DNA of 32,058 nt from Desulfuromonadales bacterium. Its GTDB lineage: Bacteria; Desulfobacterota; Desulfuromonadia; Desulfuromonadales; DASPGW01. Location: NCBI GenBank assembly GCA_035620395.1, contig DASPGW010000159.1:1-32058 (forward strand). The letters are read 5' to 3'. Under the pieces are notes generated by a model that had not been told where the DNA came from, made no database searches, and worked only from the letters and a program-made list of their open reading frames with translations. The position numbers and the translations under genes were made by a program. Shown one piece after another: positions 5,127 through 21,511 of the stretch (position 1 is its first letter; each line of letters starts with the position of its first letter).

Positions 5127-8100
5127 ATGACACCTGATACTCCCCGCGCGACGGACTATTTTCCCCTGGGCCTCCAGATCTCCGGCCGGGCCTGGGACGA
5201 CCACGACCTGAATCTCGAGCTGTTCGCCGAATACCCCTCGGCACCCCTCTACCCCCTGCGCCTGCTCGCCTCCCGCCTGCGCGGGAAGGCACCACAGAGG
5301 CCGGCGAGCGCCGGCCAGCTCAATCTGCTCGCCCTGCTCAACACCGCCTTCCGCATCGTGGCCGGCCGCTATCTCGAGCAGCGCCGCTGCAGCGTCGGGC
5401 TGGAGGCCGTCGAACTGGCCGGCCGCCACTTTCCCCTCGCTTCCTTGCGGCACACCCTCGAAGCCTTCGTCCGCCACTATCCTCCCCTGGCGGTGCGGCA
5501 GGGGATGGGCAGGGACGGCTTTCTGCGCGGCCATGACGCCCCGGCCGGCCGCCGAAACGCCGCCGTCGAGCTCTTCGTCCTCGCCGTGCAGACGCTCAAC
5601 CCGGCCGCCCACTCTCTGGCCGGGCTCTTCGACGACGCCGAACTGCAACGCGACTGCGACTACCGCGAAACGCTGCGGCTGCTCGATGCCGAGCTGGCCG
5701 GCGAGGCGGCCTCCGGCCTGCTCGGCGGCTCGCTGCTGGCCCGGCTGCGCGAGCCGCTGCTGGCGGCGCCCGACTCTCTGGCCGGCCAGCTCGATTACAT
5801 GCGGCAGCACTGGGCGGCCCTGCTCCCCCCCGAACTGCTGCGTCGCCTGCTCAGCGCCTTCGACGTGCTGCGCGAAGAGGAGCAACTGCGCGGCGGCGGC
5901 CCCGGACCCACCCATATCCCCCGCTTCGCCGCGGCCGGCGATGAACCCGAGCGCTTCTCCCCGGACACCGACTGGATGCCGAACGTGGTCCTGATCGCCA
6001 AGACCATCTACGTCTGGCTCGACCAGCTCTCCACCCGCTACGGCCGGCCGATCGAGCGGCTCGACCAGATCCCCGGCGAGGAGCTCGACCGCCTCGCCCG
6101 CTGGGGCTTCACCGCTCTCTGGTTGATCGGCATCTGGGAGCGCTCGGTCGCCTCGGCCGAGATCAAGCAGCGCATGGGCAACCCCGAGGCTGTCGCTTCC
6201 GCCTACTCCCTCTACGACTACACGGTCGCCGCCGATCTTGGCGGCGAGGCGGCGCTGCACGAACTGGAGGAGCGCTGCCGCGCCCGCGGCATCCGCCTCG
6301 CCTGCGACGTCGTCCCCAATCACACCGGCATCTATTCGCGCTGGACCCGCGAGCACCCCGACTGGTACGTTCAGGTGGAACACCCCCCCTACCCGGCCTA
6401 CCGCTTCAGCGGCCCGAACCTCTCGCGCAGCGACGACGTCGAAATCGTCATCGAGGACGGCTACTGGAACCATGCGGACGCCGCCGTCGTCTTCAGGCAC
6501 GTCGAGCGCGGCAGCGGCCGGGTGCGCTTTATCTACCACGGCAACGACGGCACCCATCTGCCGTGGAACGACACTGCCCAGCTCAACTTTCTCCTCCCCG
6601 AGGTGCGCGAGGCGATGATCCGCACCATCGTCGAGGTGGCCCGCCGCTTCCGCATCATCCGCTTCGACGCCGCCATGACCCTGGCCAAGAAGCATTTCCA
6701 GCGCCTCTGGTTCCCGCTGCCCGGCGGCGGCGCCGGCGTCCCCAGCCGCGCCGAGCACGCGATGGCGGCGGAGGCGTTCGAGGCCGCCTTTCCCGCCGAG
6801 TTCTGGCGCGAGGTGGTCGACCGGGTGGCCGCCGAGGTCCCCGACACCCTGCTGCTGGCCGAAGCCTTCTGGCTGATGGAAGGCTATTTCGTGCGCACCC
6901 TCGGCATGCACCGGGTCTACAACAGCGCCTTCATGAACATGCTGAAGATGGAGGAGAACGCCAAGTACCGCACGGTGCTCAAGAACGTACTCGAGTTCAA
7001 CCCCGAGATTCTCAAGCGCTTCGTCAACTTCATGAACAACCCGGACGAGGCGACCGCCGTCGCCCAGTTCGGCAAGATGGACAAGTACTTCGGGGTGGCG
7101 GTGCTGCTGGTCACCCTGCCGGGGCTGCCGATGGTCGGCCACGGCCAGGTGGAGGGGTTCGAAGAGAAGTACGGCATGGAGTACCGCCGCGCCTACTGGC
7201 ACGAAACACCGGACGAGGGGTTCATCGCCCACCATGAGGCGCAGATCTTCCCGCTGATGCGGCGCCGGTATCTTTTCAGCGGCTCGGCCGAGTTCGTCCT
7301 CTACGATTTCTGGAGCGGCGGGCACGTCAACGAGGACGTCTTCGCCTACAGCAACCGCACCGGCGCCGAGCGGGCACTGGTCGTCTACCACAACCGATTC
7401 GCCGACACCGGCGGCTGGATCCGCGAGTCGACGGGGAAGATGGTACGCGACGCCGGCGGTGAGCACCTGCGGCGTTCCACCCTGGCTTCCGCCTTTTCCC
7501 TGCGCGGCGAGCCGGGGATATTCTACCGTTTCCGCGACCACCGCAGCGGCCTCGAATACCTGCGCGCCGGCCGGGAACTGGCCGAGCAGGGACTTTACCT
7601 GCCCCTCGGCCCCTACCAGTACTACGTCCTGCTCGACTGGCGCGAGGTCGTCGACGCCGACGGCAGCTGGAGCGAACTGGCCGCCGACCTCGACGGGCGA
7701 CCCGTCGCGGATCTGGACGCCGAATGGAAACGGCGCCGCTACGCGCCGCTGCACGAGGCGCTGCGGCGCGCCGTCGACCACGGCCTGCTGACGCGGGTCG
7801 GCACCGAGCTTCTCGCCGTCACCACCAAGGAACGCCCGGCCCTCACCCTTTTCGGCCGCGAAGTCGCCGCCCTCCGCACGGCACTGGCGCACGCCGCCGG
7901 CCTGCCGGAGCCGGAGACTGCCACCGGCGATGAACTGGCGGCGGATCTGGCCGCCCTGGAACGGCTGCTGGCGCTGGAGGGTCGGAATGCCCGCGAGCAG
8001 GCCGCTCTCGCCGCGTTGCGCTGCGCCTTCCCCGACGCGCCCGGCGCCGGGGGGGACATCCGGTCGCCGGAGTTCAGCCGCGTCTTCCTCTCCTGGCTGG

Positions 8101-8576
8101 CGCTGCGCCGTCTCGGCGAGCTCGGCGGCCCGCAGGGGGCGCCGGCCCGCACCGCCGCCTGGCTCGAGGAGTACCTGCTGCGCGACACCCTCTTCAGGCA
8201 GTTGCGGCTGGAGACCGACGAGGCGACCGCGCACCGCGATGCCCTGCTGGTCGCCATCCTCTGCCGGCACCAGGGGGCCTGGCGTGCCGACGCCGAGGAG
8301 ACGGCGGCGCTGCGAGCCGTCCTCGCCGATCCGCAGACCCGGGAACTGCTCGGCTGGCACCGCCATGGCGGCAGCCACTACATTCTCCGCGAACGTCTGG
8401 AGAGCCTGCTCTGCTGGCTTTACTTCACCGCCGCCGTCGATGCGGTCGCCGAGGCGGGGGAAGAAACCGCCGCCCTCCTCGCCGGCCTGGCCGGCCTGCA
8501 CGACTTCTTCGGCCAGGTGCAGGAGAAAGCGGCCGAGGTGCACTACCAGGTGGAAAAACTTGCCGAATTCGTCTAG
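5127..8576 (+). CDS. Large GH13 alpha-amylase-family protein (1149 aa)
   Basis: The protein has an N-terminal region of about 280 residues of unknown fold, then a GH13 (alpha/beta)8 catalytic region at about 290-750, then a long helical C-terminal region. GH13 signatures visible are region I CDVVPNHTG (393-401), region II RFDAAMTLAKK with the nucleophile candidate D514, region III LLAEAFW with the acid/base candidate E579, and a region IV equivalent FMNNPDEATA (635-644). In region IV the usual N-H-D is altered: N637-N638-P-D640. It presumably acts on alpha-1,4/1,6-glucan, either hydrolysing or transferring; the exact reaction is not clear. No signal peptide is seen, so it is probably cytoplasmic. 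It starts 40 nt after galT and ends 65 nt before glgA. The RBS is weak. GC-rich codon use leaves a long spurious antisense frame here. Confidence 0.85.
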   Translation: MTPDTPRATDYFPLGLQISGRAWDDHDLNLELFAEYPSAPLYPLRLLASRLRGKAPQRPASAGQLNLLALLNTAFRIVAGRYLEQRRCSVGLEAVELAGRHFPLASLRHTLEAFVRHYPPLAVRQGMGRDGFLRGHDAPAGRRNAAVELFVLAVQTLNPAAHSLAGLFDDAELQRDCDYRETLRLLDAELAGEAASGLLGGSLLARLREPLLAAPDSLAGQLDYMRQHWAALLPPELLRRLLSAFDVLREEEQLRGGGPGPTHIPRFAAAGDEPERFSPDTDWMPNVVLIAKTIYVWLDQLSTRYGRPIERLDQIPGEELDRLARWGFTALWLIGIWERSVASAEIKQRMGNPEAVASAYSLYDYTVAADLGGEAALHELEERCRARGIRLACDVVPNHTGIYSRWTREHPDWYVQVEHPPYPAYRFSGPNLSRSDDVEIVIEDGYWNHADAAVVFRHVERGSGRVRFIYHGNDGTHLPWNDTAQLNFLLPEVREAMIRTIVEVARRFRIIRFDAAMTLAKKHFQRLWFPLPGGGAGVPSRAEHAMAAEAFEAAFPAEFWREVVDRVAAEVPDTLLLAEAFWLMEGYFVRTLGMHRVYNSAFMNMLKMEENAKYRTVLKNVLEFNPEILKRFVNFMNNPDEATAVAQFGKMDKYFGVAVLLVTLPGLPMVGHGQVEGFEEKYGMEYRRAYWHETPDEGFIAHHEAQIFPLMRRRYLFSGSAEFVLYDFWSGGHVNEDVFAYSNRTGAERALVVYHNRFADTGGWIRESTGKMVRDAGGEHLRRSTLASAFSLRGEPGIFYRFRDHRSGLEYLRAGRELAEQGLYLPLGPYQYYVLLDWREVVDADGSWSELAADLDGRPVADLDAEWKRRRYAPLHEALRRAVDHGLLTRVGTELLAVTTKERPALTLFGREVAALRTALAHAAGLPEPETATGDELAADLAALERLLALEGRNAREQAALAALRCAFPDAPGAGGDIRSPEFSRVFLSWLALRRLGELGGPQGAPARTAAWLEEYLLRDTLFRQLRLETDEATAHRDALLVAILCRHQGAWRADAEETAALRAVLADPQTRELLGWHRHGGSHYILRERLESLLCWLYFTAAVDAVAEAGEETAALLAGLAGLHDFFGQVQEKAAEVHYQVEKLAEFV

Positions 8577-8587
8577 AATGCGCGGGC

Positions 8588-8615
8588 GTAGGGGCGCAGC
8601 ATGCTGCGCCCCTAC
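8588..8615. repeat. 28-bp perfect palindrome, GTAG-headed (copy 1)
   Basis: This is a perfect 28-bp palindrome with outer arms GTAGGGGC/GCCCCTAC, inner arms GCAG/CTGC and centre CATG. It lies in the 65-bp spacer between the GH13 gene and glgA. It matches the layout of the palindrome at 20129-20156, from which it differs only in the inner arms, on both sides at once. There is no T-run after it on the plus strand. The GTAG head recalls REP elements. Confidence 0.85.
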
Positions 8616-8641: not shown

Positions 8642-10093
8642 GTGAATATTCTTCTTGTCTCTTCCGAAGTCGCCCCGTTTGCCAAGAGCGGCGGCATGGC
8701 CGATGTCGCCGGCGCCCTGCCCCGTGCCTTGCGCCAACTCGGCCACGACGTGCGCATCGTTTTGCCCTGCTACCGGACCGCCCGCCAGCGTTTCCCCATG
8801 GCAGAGACGGGGATCGTCATCGAGGCGGCCGTCGAAGGCCGGTCGCAACGGGCAGAGGTCCGGCAAACATCCCTGGACGATGTTCCGGTCTATCTTATCG
8901 ACCAGCCCCGCTATTTCGACCGTGACGGCCTCTACGGCACACCTGCCGGCGATTACCCGGACAACGCCCAGCGCTTCGGCTTCTTCTGCCGCGCCGTGCT
9001 CGAACTGCCCCGGCTCCTCCACTGGCGCCCCGACATGCTGCACTGCAACGACTGGCAGAGCGGCCTGGTGCCGGTGCTGCTGCGCACCGCCCACCGCGAC
9101 GACCCTTACCTTGCCGCCACCGGCAGCCTGCTGACCATCCACAACCTCGGCTACCAGGGTGTTTTCCCGGCCGGGGTGTTCGACACCCTCGACCTCGACC
9201 CGCGCCTCTTCACCCCCGCCGCCCTCGAATACTGGGGGCAGGTCTCCTTTCTCAAGGGAGGAGTGGTCTTCGCCGACCGCGTCAACACCGTCTCCGAGAC
9301 CTACTGCCTGGAGACCCTCATGCCCGAGTACGGCTTCGGTTTCGAGGGAATCCTGCGCGCCCGCGGCGCCGCCTACAGCGGCATCCTCAACGGCCTCGAC
9401 GAGCGGCAGTGGAACCCGGCCACCGACGCCGCCCTTGAGCAGACCTTCAGCGCCGCCGACCTTTCGGGCAAGGCGGCCTGCAAGCGCGCCCTGCAGCAGG
9501 CACTGGGCCTGACAGTCGACCCGGCCATCCCGCTGATCGCCATGGTCACCCGCCTCGACACGCAGAAGGGGCTCGACCTGGTGGAGCAGGCCTGGGAGGG
9601 GTTGCTGGAACGCAGGGTGCAGTTGGTCCTGCTGGGGACGGGAGAGGAGAAGCACATGCGCTTCTTCGCCGGCGTCCAGGGACACCACCCGGAGCAGGTC
9701 TCGATCCACCTCGAATTCGACGACGCCCTCTCCCGGCGCATTTACGCCGGCAGCGACCTTTTCCTGATGCCGAGCCGCTACGAACCGTGCGGCCTCGGCC
9801 AGTTGATCGCCCTGCGCTACGGCAGCATCCCGGTGGTGCGCCGCACCGGCGGTCTCGCCGATACCGTCATCGATCCGGCCGAGGATGCGGCGGCAGCCAA
9901 CGGCTTCACCTTCGGCGAGCCGTCTCCCCTCTCGATGCTGATCGCCCTCGACCGCGCGCTCGGCCTCTATCGGCAGCCGCAGCCCTGGCTGGCGATGGTC
10001 AGGCGGGGGATGCAGCAGGACTTCTCCTGGGACCGCTCGGCGCAGCACTACCTGGATCTCTACCGGCAGGCGAAGGAGGCGAAGGGTGCCTGA
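8642..10093 (+). CDS. glgA: Glycogen synthase (ADP-glucose type)
   Basis: The 483-residue protein is a GT5 glycogen/starch synthase, which adds glucose from ADP-glucose to an alpha-1,4-glucan. The N-terminus is typical (NILLVSSEVAPF), followed by KSGGMADVAGALP, the GlgA version of the KxGGL nucleotide-sugar loop. The C-terminal half has VTRLDTQKGLDL, LLGTGEEKH, and the conserved block SRYEPCGLGQLIALRYGSIPVVRRTGGLADTV. Length is usual for the family. The start is a GTG; no strong Shine-Dalgarno is visible, but starting later would remove the conserved first strand. It follows the GH13 gene and overlaps the small acidic gene downstream by 8 nt. Confidence 0.95.
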   Translation: MNILLVSSEVAPFAKSGGMADVAGALPRALRQLGHDVRIVLPCYRTARQRFPMAETGIVIEAAVEGRSQRAEVRQTSLDDVPVYLIDQPRYFDRDGLYGTPAGDYPDNAQRFGFFCRAVLELPRLLHWRPDMLHCNDWQSGLVPVLLRTAHRDDPYLAATGSLLTIHNLGYQGVFPAGVFDTLDLDPRLFTPAALEYWGQVSFLKGGVVFADRVNTVSETYCLETLMPEYGFGFEGILRARGAAYSGILNGLDERQWNPATDAALEQTFSAADLSGKAACKRALQQALGLTVDPAIPLIAMVTRLDTQKGLDLVEQAWEGLLERRVQLVLLGTGEEKHMRFFAGVQGHHPEQVSIHLEFDDALSRRIYAGSDLFLMPSRYEPCGLGQLIALRYGSIPVVRRTGGLADTVIDPAEDAAAANGFTFGEPSPLSMLIALDRALGLYRQPQPWLAMVRRGMQQDFSWDRSAQHYLDLYRQAKEAKGA

Positions 10094-13733: not shown

Positions 13734-13763
13734 ATACGCATTAGATGCGCATGGAGGTTCTAA

Positions 13764-13997
13764 ATGGGAAATACCGCAAAAAAATTGCCGGCGAACCTGA
13801 GTATCCGCAGCGACCTGCTTCGAGAAGCCAAGGAACGCAAAATCAATCTTTCGCAGACCCTGGAGGAACGGTTGGAAGAGATTCTGCGCGAGCAGAACCG
13901 CCAGGCTTGGCGGGAGGAGAACAAGGAAGCCATCCAGGCTGCCAACGATTTCGTCGCCAGGCACGGCCTCTGGAGCGATGGGTTGAGGCGCTTCTAA
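13764..13997 (+). CDS. ccdA: CcdA-family antitoxin
   Basis: A 77-residue protein that fits CcdA antitoxins in size and layout. An N-terminal ribbon-helix-helix-like DNA-binding part (about 5-45: KLPANLSIRSDLLREAKERKINLSQTLEERLEEIL) is followed by a C-terminal toxin-binding tail with the typical stretch WREENKEAIQAANDFVARHGLWSDGLRRF. The protein should bind and neutralise CcdB and repress its own promoter. GGAGG precedes the ATG by 8 nt. The stop overlaps the start of the toxin gene (TAATG). It lies within a repeat-bounded accessory patch. Confidence 0.9.
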   Translation: MGNTAKKLPANLSIRSDLLREAKERKINLSQTLEERLEEILREQNRQAWREENKEAIQAANDFVARHGLWSDGLRRF

Positions 13998-14311
13998 TGG
14001 CCCAGTTCGATATCTACGCGAATCCGAACCAGGGACCTGAAGAACCGGTCAAATACCTCCTGGACCTGCAGGCCGAAATCCTTGAGGATCTGCCGACTCG
14101 GGTGGTCGCGCCGCTCGTTGCGCCGGACAGCCTCGGCCCATCCATGCGGATTCTCAACCCCCGGATTTTTGTTCATGGCGAACCATATATCCTGCTGTCA
14201 CATCTCCTCGCCGCAATTCCCGCCAAGTCCCTTGGCTTGTCAGTCGATTCAGCGAAAACGCAGCGGGACGAGGTCATTCGCTCCGTCGATTTTCTTTTCA
14301 CCGGCACCTGA
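13997..14311 (+). CDS. ccdB: CcdB-family toxin (gyrase poison)
   Basis: A 104-residue protein with the length and sequence pattern of CcdB: AQFDIYANPN at the start, KYLLDLQAEILEDLPTRVVAPL, then ILNPRIFVHGEPYILLSHLLAAIPAKSLG. CcdB toxins trap DNA gyrase on DNA. The ATG overlaps the antitoxin stop by one base, the usual antitoxin-first order, with translational coupling. The C-terminus reads VIRSVDFLFTGT; in F-plasmid CcdB the C-terminal W-G-I residues are essential for gyrase poisoning, and they are not obvious here, as in many chromosomal homologues. Activity cannot be judged from sequence. Confidence 0.9.
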   Translation: MAQFDIYANPNQGPEEPVKYLLDLQAEILEDLPTRVVAPLVAPDSLGPSMRILNPRIFVHGEPYILLSHLLAAIPAKSLGLSVDSAKTQRDEVIRSVDFLFTGT

Positions 14312-18950: not shown

Positions 18951-20132
18951 ATGGCGGATTTGTGCAATGTCGATTTTCTGCAACTCGACGACCTGCTGAG
19001 CGAGAGGGAGAAGTCCCTCCGGAGCAGGGTCCGGACGATGGTGGAGCGGGAGGTCATCCCGCACATCGCCGGGTGGTACGAACGGGCCGAGTTCCCTCGG
19101 CACCTGATCGCGCACCTGGCGGAGCTGGGGCTGCCGGGAATGAAGCTGAAGGAGTTCGGCGGGGCGAGCAGCGTCGAGTACGGCCTCGCCTGCCGGGAGC
19201 TGGAGCGCGGGGACAGCGGCCTGCGCAGCTACCTGTCGGTCACCTCCTCCCTGGTGATGCACCCGATTTCGGTCTTCGGCTCGGCGCAGCAGAAGGCGCG
19301 CTGGCTGCCCGCGCTCGCCCGGGGGGAAGCGATCGGCTGCTTCGCCCTGACCGAGCCGGAGGCCGGCTCCGACCCGTCGCACCTGAAGACCTTCGCGCGC
19401 CGCGACGGCGACGACTGGCGCCTCTCCGGCCTCAAGCGCTGGATCTCCTTCGGCTCGATCGCCGACGTCGCCCTGGTCTGGGCGCAGACCGAGGAGGGGA
19501 TCCGCGGCTTTCTGGTGGAGACCTCCACCCCCGGCTTCTCGGCCCGGCAGATACCGCACATGGCGTCGCTGCGCGCTTCGGTGACCTCCACCCTGATCCT
19601 CGACGACGTGCGGGTTCCCGCAGCCGCCCGCCTGCCCGGAGCGGAAGGGCTCAAGGCCGCCCTCAGCTGCCTCAACGAGGGACGCCTCGGCATCGCCTGG
19701 GGGGCGATGGGCGCCGCCGCCGCCTGTTTCGAGGCGGCCCGCGACTACGCCGTGCGCCGGGTCCAGTTCGGACGGCCGATCGCCGCCTTCCAGCTCACCC
19801 AGCGCAAGCTGGCGGCGATGCTCACCGAGATTGTCAAGGGAGAGCTGCTCGCCTGGCGCATCGCCCGCCTGCGCGACGAGGAGAAGGCGCGGCCGGAGCA
19901 GATTTCGCTGGCCAAGATGAACAACGTCGCCGAAGCGCTGAACATCGCCCGCGAGGCCCGCAGCATCCTCGGCGGCAACGGGGTCAGCCTCGACTTTCAC
20001 GTCATCCGCCACATGAACAACCTGGAGAGCGTCTACACCTACGAGGGGACACACGAGATCCACACCCTGATCCTCGGCGCGGCGATTACGGGGATAAATG
20101 CCTTCGGGGGAGTGGAGACGGAGGGTTCGTAG
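18951..20132 (+). CDS. Glutaryl-CoA dehydrogenase-type acyl-CoA dehydrogenase
   Basis: A 393-residue FAD-dependent acyl-CoA dehydrogenase. GDSGLRSYLSVTSSLVMHPISVFGS closely follows the glutaryl-CoA dehydrogenase pattern, including the arginine expected to bind the distal carboxylate. CFALTEPEAGSDPSHL and WISFGSIADVALVWA form the FAD/substrate loops. The catalytic glutamate lies in VYTYEGTHEIHTLILG. The family oxidises glutaryl-CoA to glutaconyl-CoA and, in decarboxylating members, on to crotonyl-CoA; whether this one decarboxylates is not visible. Good RBS (GAGGGAGG). Convergent with a saccharopine dehydrogenase-like gene, which could fit lysine or glutarate metabolism. A palindrome follows the stop-codon region. 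Confidence 0.82.
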   Translation: MADLCNVDFLQLDDLLSEREKSLRSRVRTMVEREVIPHIAGWYERAEFPRHLIAHLAELGLPGMKLKEFGGASSVEYGLACRELERGDSGLRSYLSVTSSLVMHPISVFGSAQQKARWLPALARGEAIGCFALTEPEAGSDPSHLKTFARRDGDDWRLSGLKRWISFGSIADVALVWAQTEEGIRGFLVETSTPGFSARQIPHMASLRASVTSTLILDDVRVPAAARLPGAEGLKAALSCLNEGRLGIAWGAMGAAAACFEAARDYAVRRVQFGRPIAAFQLTQRKLAAMLTEIVKGELLAWRIARLRDEEKARPEQISLAKMNNVAEALNIAREARSILGGNGVSLDFHVIRHMNNLESVYTYEGTHEIHTLILGAAITGINAFGGVETEGS

Positions 20133-20156
20133 GGGCAATTCATGAATTGCCCCTAC
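20129..20156. repeat. 28-bp perfect palindrome, GTAG-headed (copy 2)
   Basis: A perfect 28-bp palindrome with outer arms GTAGGGGC/GCCCCTAC, inner arms AATT/AATT and centre CATG, overlapping the stop codon of the acyl-CoA dehydrogenase gene. It shares outer arms and centre with the copy at 8588-8615; the inner arms differ but remain complementary. It may also terminate the two convergent genes. Confidence 0.88.
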
Positions 20157-20178: not shown

Positions 20179-21372
20179 TTAACACACCGGCTCGGTCTTC
20201 TCCGTCATCAGCTCGAAGCGGATGCCGGCGGCGGCAAGTTCCTCGAAGAGCCGGTCGAAGAGAGGACCGTGAATCGCCCGCTCCGGGGTGAGCAGGCCGA
20301 TCTCCTGCAGTTCGCCGCGTCCGATCAGCAGCGCCGTGACTGCCGCGGTGATGGCGGTAACCCGGGCCATGGCAGTGAGCCTCCGAGCCGGGTCGGGATG
20401 GATGACCCCCTCCAGGCGGTAGTGCCGCGGCCGACTGGCCTCGACCCCGCTCGCCTCGACCCGGAAAAGGGTAATATCCCGCGCTCCCCGCGGCAGTTGC
20501 ACTTGCGGCCCGAGCAGGGCATTCAGCAGCCGGATCGGCGGCACCTCCACCCCGTCCACCGCCAGCGGTTTCCGACCGAGCAGGCCCAGCTCCCGCAGCA
20601 GAGCCGCTTTGGCGGCGTAGCCGGGCCAGCGCAGGGTCTTCTGGGTGCCCCGGCGCAACCCCTGCAGGGCGGGGTACTCCAGCAGCCAGGGGGCAAAGCC
20701 CTCGTGATAGGCTTCCACCTCCCCGATCTCCGGAAAATGGAGCGTCTCCACCCCGGAATAGCGAGGGACGAGCCGCAGCTCGCCCTTCTCGACGACCGCG
20801 GCCTCATCCTCGCGCAGCGGCAGTTCCTTCCCGCCGAAGACGATCCGGTAGCCCAGCGGCGGCTGCGGCCGCTCCGGAATGCCGCCGCAGTAGAGGTGCA
20901 GCTCCTCGACCCGGTCGAGCCTCTCCGCAAGGTGGCGGGCGGCAATCTCGGCCAGGCCCGGATCGACGCCGCAGCCGATGACCACCGGCACCCCCGCCGC
21001 CTCGGCCCGCCGATGCAGTTCCAGCCACTCGCCGGCAGGGGGCAGTGTCAGATCGACCAGAGGGCGGCGCGCTTCGGCCGCGGCCCGAATTGCCGGGGCG
21101 CTGGCCGGCTGCGGCAGCGCCGAAACGATCACGTCGACTTCGGCAAAACGGCGGACGACCTCGGCCTGTCCGGTCATCACGTCGATGACCTGAAACTCCA
21201 GCTTGCCGCTGCCGGGAAAGGGCGCCAGCCGCCTGCGGACCGCCGCCAGCCGGCGCCGGTCGCGGTCGCCGATCACCGCCCCCGCAACGCCGGGATCGGC
21301 CATCAGGTGCAGAGCCGCCGCCGGACCCATCAGCCCGCTGCCCAGAACCATTGCTCGCAGCTTCCGCTCCAT
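20179..21372 (-). CDS. Saccharopine dehydrogenase-family protein
   Basis: A 397-residue protein with an N-terminal Rossmann fold (RAMVLGSGLMGPAAALHLMADPGVAGAVIGDRD, GxGxxG-type loop), then VDVIVSALPQPASAPAIRAAAEARRPLVDLTLPP and GVPVVIGCGVDPGLAEIAARHL, a block seen in saccharopine dehydrogenase and related carboxynorspermidine-type reductases. It is expected to be an NAD(P)-dependent oxidoreductase on an amino-acid-like substrate; the exact substrate is unknown. The ATG at 21372 is chosen because AAAGGAG lies upstream by 11 nt; an in-frame ATG at 21408 precedes that RBS. Convergent with the glutaryl-CoA dehydrogenase-type gene, so a link to lysine catabolism is possible but inferred. Confidence 0.75.
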   Translation of the reverse strand: MERKLRAMVLGSGLMGPAAALHLMADPGVAGAVIGDRDRRRLAAVRRRLAPFPGSGKLEFQVIDVMTGQAEVVRRFAEVDVIVSALPQPASAPAIRAAAEARRPLVDLTLPPAGEWLELHRRAEAAGVPVVIGCGVDPGLAEIAARHLAERLDRVEELHLYCGGIPERPQPPLGYRIVFGGKELPLREDEAAVVEKGELRLVPRYSGVETLHFPEIGEVEAYHEGFAPWLLEYPALQGLRRGTQKTLRWPGYAAKAALLRELGLLGRKPLAVDGVEVPPIRLLNALLGPQVQLPRGARDITLFRVEASGVEASRPRHYRLEGVIHPDPARRLTAMARVTAITAAVTALLIGRGELQEIGLLTPERAIHGPLFDRLFEELAAAGIRFELMTEKTEPVC

Positions 21373-21511
21373 TGCTACGTCGGCTCCTTTCCCGACATTC
21401 CCGGCCAAAACCCTGGCTCAGGATGGCGACAATGCCCAAGTTGCGGGTGGGTATGGCAGAAAATCCGTGACTGGCTATACGTTACCGCTGAAAGACAAAA
21501 TCAATCACCCA

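Follow-up and report, generated by a model that had tools for sequence, protein, structure and literature searches.

The window analysed here, a stretch of 32,058 nucleotides corresponding to contig 159 of a 3.3 Mb Desulfuromonadales genome (313 contigs, 95.8% complete), carries two short palindromes, and the question they raise is what kind of element they are, what keeps their arms paired and which transposase, if any, they belong to. From the letters of the window, the original prediction had described two perfect 28-bp palindromes, and both proved to be letter-for-letter exact at 8588-8615 and 20129-20156.

Two palindromes at gene junctions of the window

The palindromes and the genes that flank them, the latter taken from the open reading frame list and named by their Pfam domains, are as follows.

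5127..8576, + strand: flanking alpha-amylase-domain gene (PF00128), ending 11 bp upstream of the first element
8588..8615, no strand assigned: probable double-foot REP, variant GCAGC, GTAG GGGC GCAGC AT GCTGC GCCC CTAC (28 bp, exact)
8642..10093, + strand: flanking glycogen/starch synthase (PF08323), starting 26 bp past the first element
18951..20132, + strand: flanking acyl-CoA dehydrogenase, with its stop TAG (20130-20132) within the foot of the second element
20129..20156, no strand assigned: probable double-foot REP, variant AATTC, GTAG GGGC AATTC AT GAATT GCCC CTAC (28 bp, exact)
20179..21408, - strand: flanking saccharopine dehydrogenase-like gene, convergent

A search of the window for the outer arms with up to three mismatches returned exactly two matches, both with 0 mismatches, where 0.18 were expected from shuffling. 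Both stems are paired over 12 bp, with the GTAG feet paired with CTAC at both ends, and at the stem bottom of each copy GTAG is followed by GGGC opposite GCCC, which gives three consecutive G-C pairs. Folded as single-stranded DNA, the two elements reached -14.7 (8588) and -11.9 kcal/mol (20129), with z of about -6.5. Both window copies, for which the position relative to genes was tallied, lie at gene junctions. Their position, just past or at stop codons and in one case between convergent genes, is what would be expected of palindromes kept by the chromosome as transcript ends, mRNA stabilisers or protein-binding sites, independently of any transposase; an Rfam search of the window, which gave no match, counts against such a role.

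The foot of the palindrome at 20129-20156 supplies the TAG stop of the acyl-CoA dehydrogenase frame, whose short terminal tail reads GGVETEGS. Elsewhere in the window, a CcdB-like toxin gene lies at 13745-14311 (PF01845, E 7e-25).

The palindrome recurs in the host genome

The host is the only genome in its own family, which leaves no relative there for comparison. The pattern GTAGGGGCN{2,32}GCCCCTAC, which holds the outer arms constant, fitted 17 places in the host genome, as compared with 1 for the reversed control pattern, and the palindrome is thus not confined to the two sites of the window. Of these 17 copies, ten are single hairpins, 27-29 bp long, and the other seven are two-hairpin units of 47 bp. 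Among the single hairpins, the 8588 variant occurs four times (the window copy included), ACGGC twice with different centres, and GATTC and AATTC are also represented, the remaining two being a 27-bp form with the loop TGC and a 29-bp form. The complete 28-mer of 8588 recurs identically at three host loci (L001, L004 and L010).

The 47-bp units, exemplified by GTAG-GGGCGGAC-TGC-GTCCGCCC-A-GGGCGCAT-GCA-ATGCGCCC-CTAC, fold into two separate hairpins with unpaired feet, and they look like inverted REP dimers of the REPIN kind. They make up the family's other common form and lie on host contigs 34, 53, 145, 163, 206 and 285 (L002, L003, L005, L011, L014 and L015), with the hairpins in either order and a spacer of A or T. 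The base preceding GTAG was C or T in all 15 host copies fetched, including those of the window (8587 and 20128), and the base following CTAC was a purine (A or G) in 14 of the 15; this bias, which was weaker in other genomes, may stem from the site of insertion or cleavage.

Pairing is maintained across phyla, with discrete stem variants

A scan of 84,980 species genomes returned at least 118 stretches with the palindrome. Among the genome matches listed, inner positions were complementary in 687 of 738 cases, as compared with 278 ± 14 when the arms were shuffled, and therefore pairing is maintained. This bears out the claim of the original prediction that pairing and not sequence is conserved: inner bases do not vary without complementarity. 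In the same matches, identical stem pairs numbered 122, as compared with the 9.7 ± 3.3 expected from independent columns, indicating that the variation is organised as discrete stem variants. Most inner variation consists of whole-stem variants, many of them exactly common to several phyla, and not of scattered single compensated pairs. Of the listed cross-phylum matches, for example, 83 were perfect palindromes, 10 of them the AATTC 28-mer of 20129.

The genome matches listed came from Cyanobacteria, Chloroflexi, Planctomycetes, Desulfobacterota, Bacteroidetes, Acidobacteria, Nitrospirae, Omnitrophota, Firmicutes, Calditrichota, Gemmatimonadetes, Poribacteria and candidate phyla such as Kuenenbacteria and Falkowbacteria, among others, so that one hairpin family, in part as identical 28-mers, is spread over many phylum-level groups. 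Judged from these shared sequences, the stem variants appear to have reached several phyla through descent or transfer. Identical 28-mers in different phyla also speak against palindromes kept for a chromosomal function. Viral contigs contain the palindrome as well (at least 120 stretches, L165-L284), and phages could be its carriers between hosts; a plasmid search gave 2 distant matches, which leaves a plasmid vehicle unsupported.

With 16 fixed bases, some chance matches are to be expected across a collection of 257 billion bases, and a GC-rich genome might produce such palindromes by accident. The 17 host copies against 1 for the control, together with inner complementarity far above that of shuffled arms, refute this explanation, to which we assign a negligible probability.

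The palindrome is associated with transposase genes of subclass 2.4

Generic Y1 transposase genes matching PF01797 were considered as partners and rejected. Such Y1_Tnp genes are present in 216 of the 244 genomes of the class, and among 60 of their loci that were fetched, none had the palindrome within about 300 bp, a result that initially argued against RAYTs.

Screening of palindrome-centred loci pointed to a weakly matching Y1 subgroup, whose proteins begin M-YNPDIHHRRSIRLKGYDYS, and a profile built from four of these proteins (A1) was used in the gene searches. The proteins found contain the motifs NH[IFV]H, WQ and YIxNNP. Two founding proteins matched NCBIfam REP_Tyr_transpos at 2e-17 and 2e-19, both under the model cut-off, and two subclass-2.4 proteins scored 27 and 18 bits against PF01797, for which the cut-off is 23. 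Within the class, A1 found the gene in 87 of the 244 genomes. For other groups, 50 palindrome loci served as starting points, and of the 50 palindrome-bearing genomes so reached, 34 had the gene as well.

At 60 subclass-2.4 loci, the palindrome lay inside the gene at 20, within 400 bp of it at 20, and in one or the other position at 26; the strict double-foot pattern was absent at 34, which counts against the link. Internal copies are situated between the HuH motif and the Y-motif region, where they keep the frame and are read through, for instance as RGTMHRAPT or RGVLQYAPT, and some copies lie right at the gene edge. Both window 28-mers were found in such a context. That of 8588 is inside the gene of L357, which belongs to the same order as the host, in frame as VGAQHAAPL, and again in frame inside the gene of L395 (Aggregatilineales), while that of 20129 is inside the gene of L382 (Brocadiaceae) and beside the gene in L375 (Zixibacteria). 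Palindrome pairs were identical in 20 of 22 cases within a locus, as compared with 46 of 968 between loci (permutation p 0.0002). Two loci (L346 and L354) have a flank-gene-flank layout with three identical copies, and the gene of L350 has one internal copy and two on the same side.

Across the 244 genomes, gene and palindrome occurred together in 70, the gene alone in 17, the palindrome alone in 71 and neither in 86 (odds ratio 5.0, p 9e-8, with kinship ignored). The 71 genomes that have the palindrome and no detected subclass-2.4 gene, the host with its 17 copies among them, count against the link; in one genome (G193) there were 50 copies with the gene undetected, and G013, assembled in one contig and with 4 copies, had no Y1_Tnp match either. 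That many genomes contain copies without the gene would suit a chromosomal function independent of transposases, but the palindrome is concentrated in or beside the genes of a single transposase subclass and was found at 0 of the 60 other Y1 loci, which argues against it.

We consider it very likely that the window palindromes are non-autonomous double-foot REPs of TnpA_REP/RAYT subclass 2.4 (Bertels group 4), the mobility route proposed below included. The original prediction of a RAYT-linked, REP-like element with a GTAG foot can accordingly be made specific as to REP type and transposase subclass, and a palindrome that was anonymous is now tied by direct evidence to a named transposase subclass.

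The host retains a decayed remnant of the transposase gene

No intact subclass-2.4 gene was detected at E 1e-20 in the host assembly. A looser search returned a match of about 36-37 codons on contig 104 (C104:3834-3941), reading VWQGNCFEHISSSDADPHCLRDGIATDPTRWKGDESH, which is a decayed C-terminus of subclass 2.4 (tblastn E 7e-7 against L357). Since this decayed remnant is all that was found, the host copies are probably leftovers of a transposase that has been lost or was left unassembled. Proximity to intact RAYT genes, which had been put forward as a check, was thus observed in other genomes, at the 26 of 60 loci described above, and not in the host. The RAYT-like relic that the original prediction had placed in the window was not recovered there, the best subclass-2.4 matches amounting to little more than translations of the two palindromes (VGAQHAAPLH and VGAIHELPLRT).

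The host does have two Y1 transposases of another kind (L016 and L017), and their fetched flanks, up to 1.5 kb, lack the palindrome. With two intact Y1_Tnp reading frames (319 and 325 aa) and no intact subclass-2.4 gene, it might be supposed that these enzymes, or others like them, move the REPs. However, about 28 of the 60 palindrome-free loci of such genes came from palindrome-rich genomes, and a genome assembled in one contig (G013) has 4 copies with neither a subclass-2.4 gene nor any Y1_Tnp match. Mobilisation by Y1 transposases outside subclass 2.4 is therefore, in our judgement, highly improbable.

A possible route of mobility

According to the literature, TnpA_REP is an HUH enzyme whose target is a GTAG-footed hairpin in single-stranded form and which cuts DNA and joins it again (PMC8266576). 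Because the elements studied here have GTAG at one end and its complement CTAC at the other, each strand presents a GTAG-footed hairpin. Single-stranded GTAGGGGC...GCCCCTAC hairpins are putative targets of subclass-2.4 TnpA_REP, with single-stranded GTAGGGGCGCAGCATGCTGCGCCCCTAC as a putative substrate. In single-stranded form, probably as part of the lagging-strand template, the DNA would be nicked by the transposase at the GTAG-footed hairpin, which would then be joined at a new site. A palindrome with two feet could be recognised on either strand and would carry both boundaries of a mobile unit, unlike a one-foot REP. The 47-bp GTAG-hairpin-hairpin-CTAC form may represent two REPs joined as an inverted dimer, from which the 28-bp form would have arisen by loss of the centre, unless the latter is a unit that is mobile in its own right.

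Stems differ at orthologous junctions

The genus of G012 was compared at a few junctions, whose gene names are our reading of the flanks: cysH-cysD, nuo, hisB-hisD and one site before an asd-like gene (L405, L412, L413, L417 and relatives L418-L447). The same junction was occupied in several species, with GTAG/CTAC and complementarity kept and the whole stem different; at the nuo junction, for instance, GCACCGACGTGC / GGACGCAGTCC stood against GACCCGCTGGGTC / GAGGCACCGCCTC. The element was absent from G014 at the asd-like site and from G023 and G207 at cysH-cysD, a pattern of presence and absence that supports its gain or loss. In G012, several different two-hairpin units were clustered within a few hundred bases (L408, L414 and L415).

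An element that stays while its stem changes is also what a useful hairpin would show, in line with a chromosomal function. Its presence or absence at orthologous junctions and its patchy copy number among related genomes, from 0 to 50, nevertheless speak against that explanation, which we regard as distinctly improbable when weighed with the transposase association.

For the double-foot REPs, the comparison suggests that what looks like a compensatory change may often be the exchange of a whole stem. The original prediction of compensatory changes thus holds as far as complementarity is concerned, while stepwise covariation is doubtful because orthologous junctions exchange whole stems. The differences at one junction might also have arisen from repeated insertion at the same site. 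How REP stems change, whether by compensation pair by pair, through renewed insertion into the same site or by a swap of the whole hairpin, is turned into a testable question by the comparison of orthologous sites.

In a tree of 54 transposases, the stem variants clustered only in part, 5 shared variants requiring 7 changes, and the same stem was also found on distant branches (GCAGC in L357 and L395, GTATTG in L350 and L375), many forks being weakly supported. The stem variant thus tracks the transposase phylogeny only weakly, a point against the assignment to subclass 2.4 that leaves strict recognition of a cognate stem unsupported. We tentatively raise the idea, which we think unlikely on present evidence, that hairpins are rewritten in place: the feet and the insertion point would be kept, both arms would give way together to a different standard variant, and identity would be maintained among the copies in and around one transposase gene, in a concerted and perhaps transposase-driven exchange that draws on a cross-phylum pool of variants. 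If true, such in-place exchange would account for the mismatch between stem type and transposase phylogeny.

Comparison with known systems

The closest counterpart is TnpA_REP subclass 2.4 of Quentin, Siguier, Chandler and Fichant (2018), equivalent to Bertels group 4, which is characterised by NH[IFV]H, WQ and YIxNNP and by occurrence in many phyla (PMC6006769). Its double-foot REPs are described as long hairpins that open with GT[AG]G and close with C[TC]AC, three consecutive G-C pairs are stated for the stem bottom of the canonical long REPs of the subclass, a central deletion of an inverted dimer is proposed as a possible origin of double-foot REPs, and REPs within genes without frame disruption are called unique to subclass 2.4 (PMC6006769). 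Set against this description, our elements agree in the GTAG and complementary ends, the G-C base of the stem, the repetition in the genome (17 copies, with those of the window in the intergenic setting usual for the kind), the flanking and in-frame in-gene REPs, the transposase motifs and the scatter over phyla, and they differ in that the genome of the window lacks an intact gene. Since subclass motifs, double-foot ends and in-gene REPs are as published, the window elements belong to a known kind; double-foot REPs were already described in 2018 (PMC6006769), and ours are well-supported further examples. The match is drawn at the level of these features and not of the exact GTAGGGGC sequence family, and a literature search with the literal string GTAGGGGC gave nothing relevant among the papers listed. 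Whole-stem exchange in place and exact sharing across phyla were seen here and were not found in the accessible text of Quentin et al. (PMC6006769).

The elements also resemble the GTAG REPs that Di Nocera et al. (2013) reported from Chloroflexi, Cyanobacteria and all proteobacterial divisions (PMC3733652), with which they share the GTAG foot and a short stem with complementary changes. In the head-to-head dimers of that super-family, GTAG is on the outside and the partners are 1-2 bp apart in some families, an arrangement that the 47-bp form resembles (PMC3733652). In contrast, GTAG in the super-family is unpaired and present at one end only (PMC3733652), whereas each end of the 28-bp form has a foot and the two are paired; accordingly, the 28-bp copies fall outside the classical one-foot definition of a GTAG REP, while each half of the 47-bp form fits it. 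With the REPINs and BIMEs of Pseudomonas and E. coli (group 2 and 3 RAYTs), the elements have in common inverted REP pairs as the mobile unit and a transposase of the HUH superfamily, but those systems belong to other transposase subclasses, usually have single-foot REPs and, in E. coli, have bulged stems.
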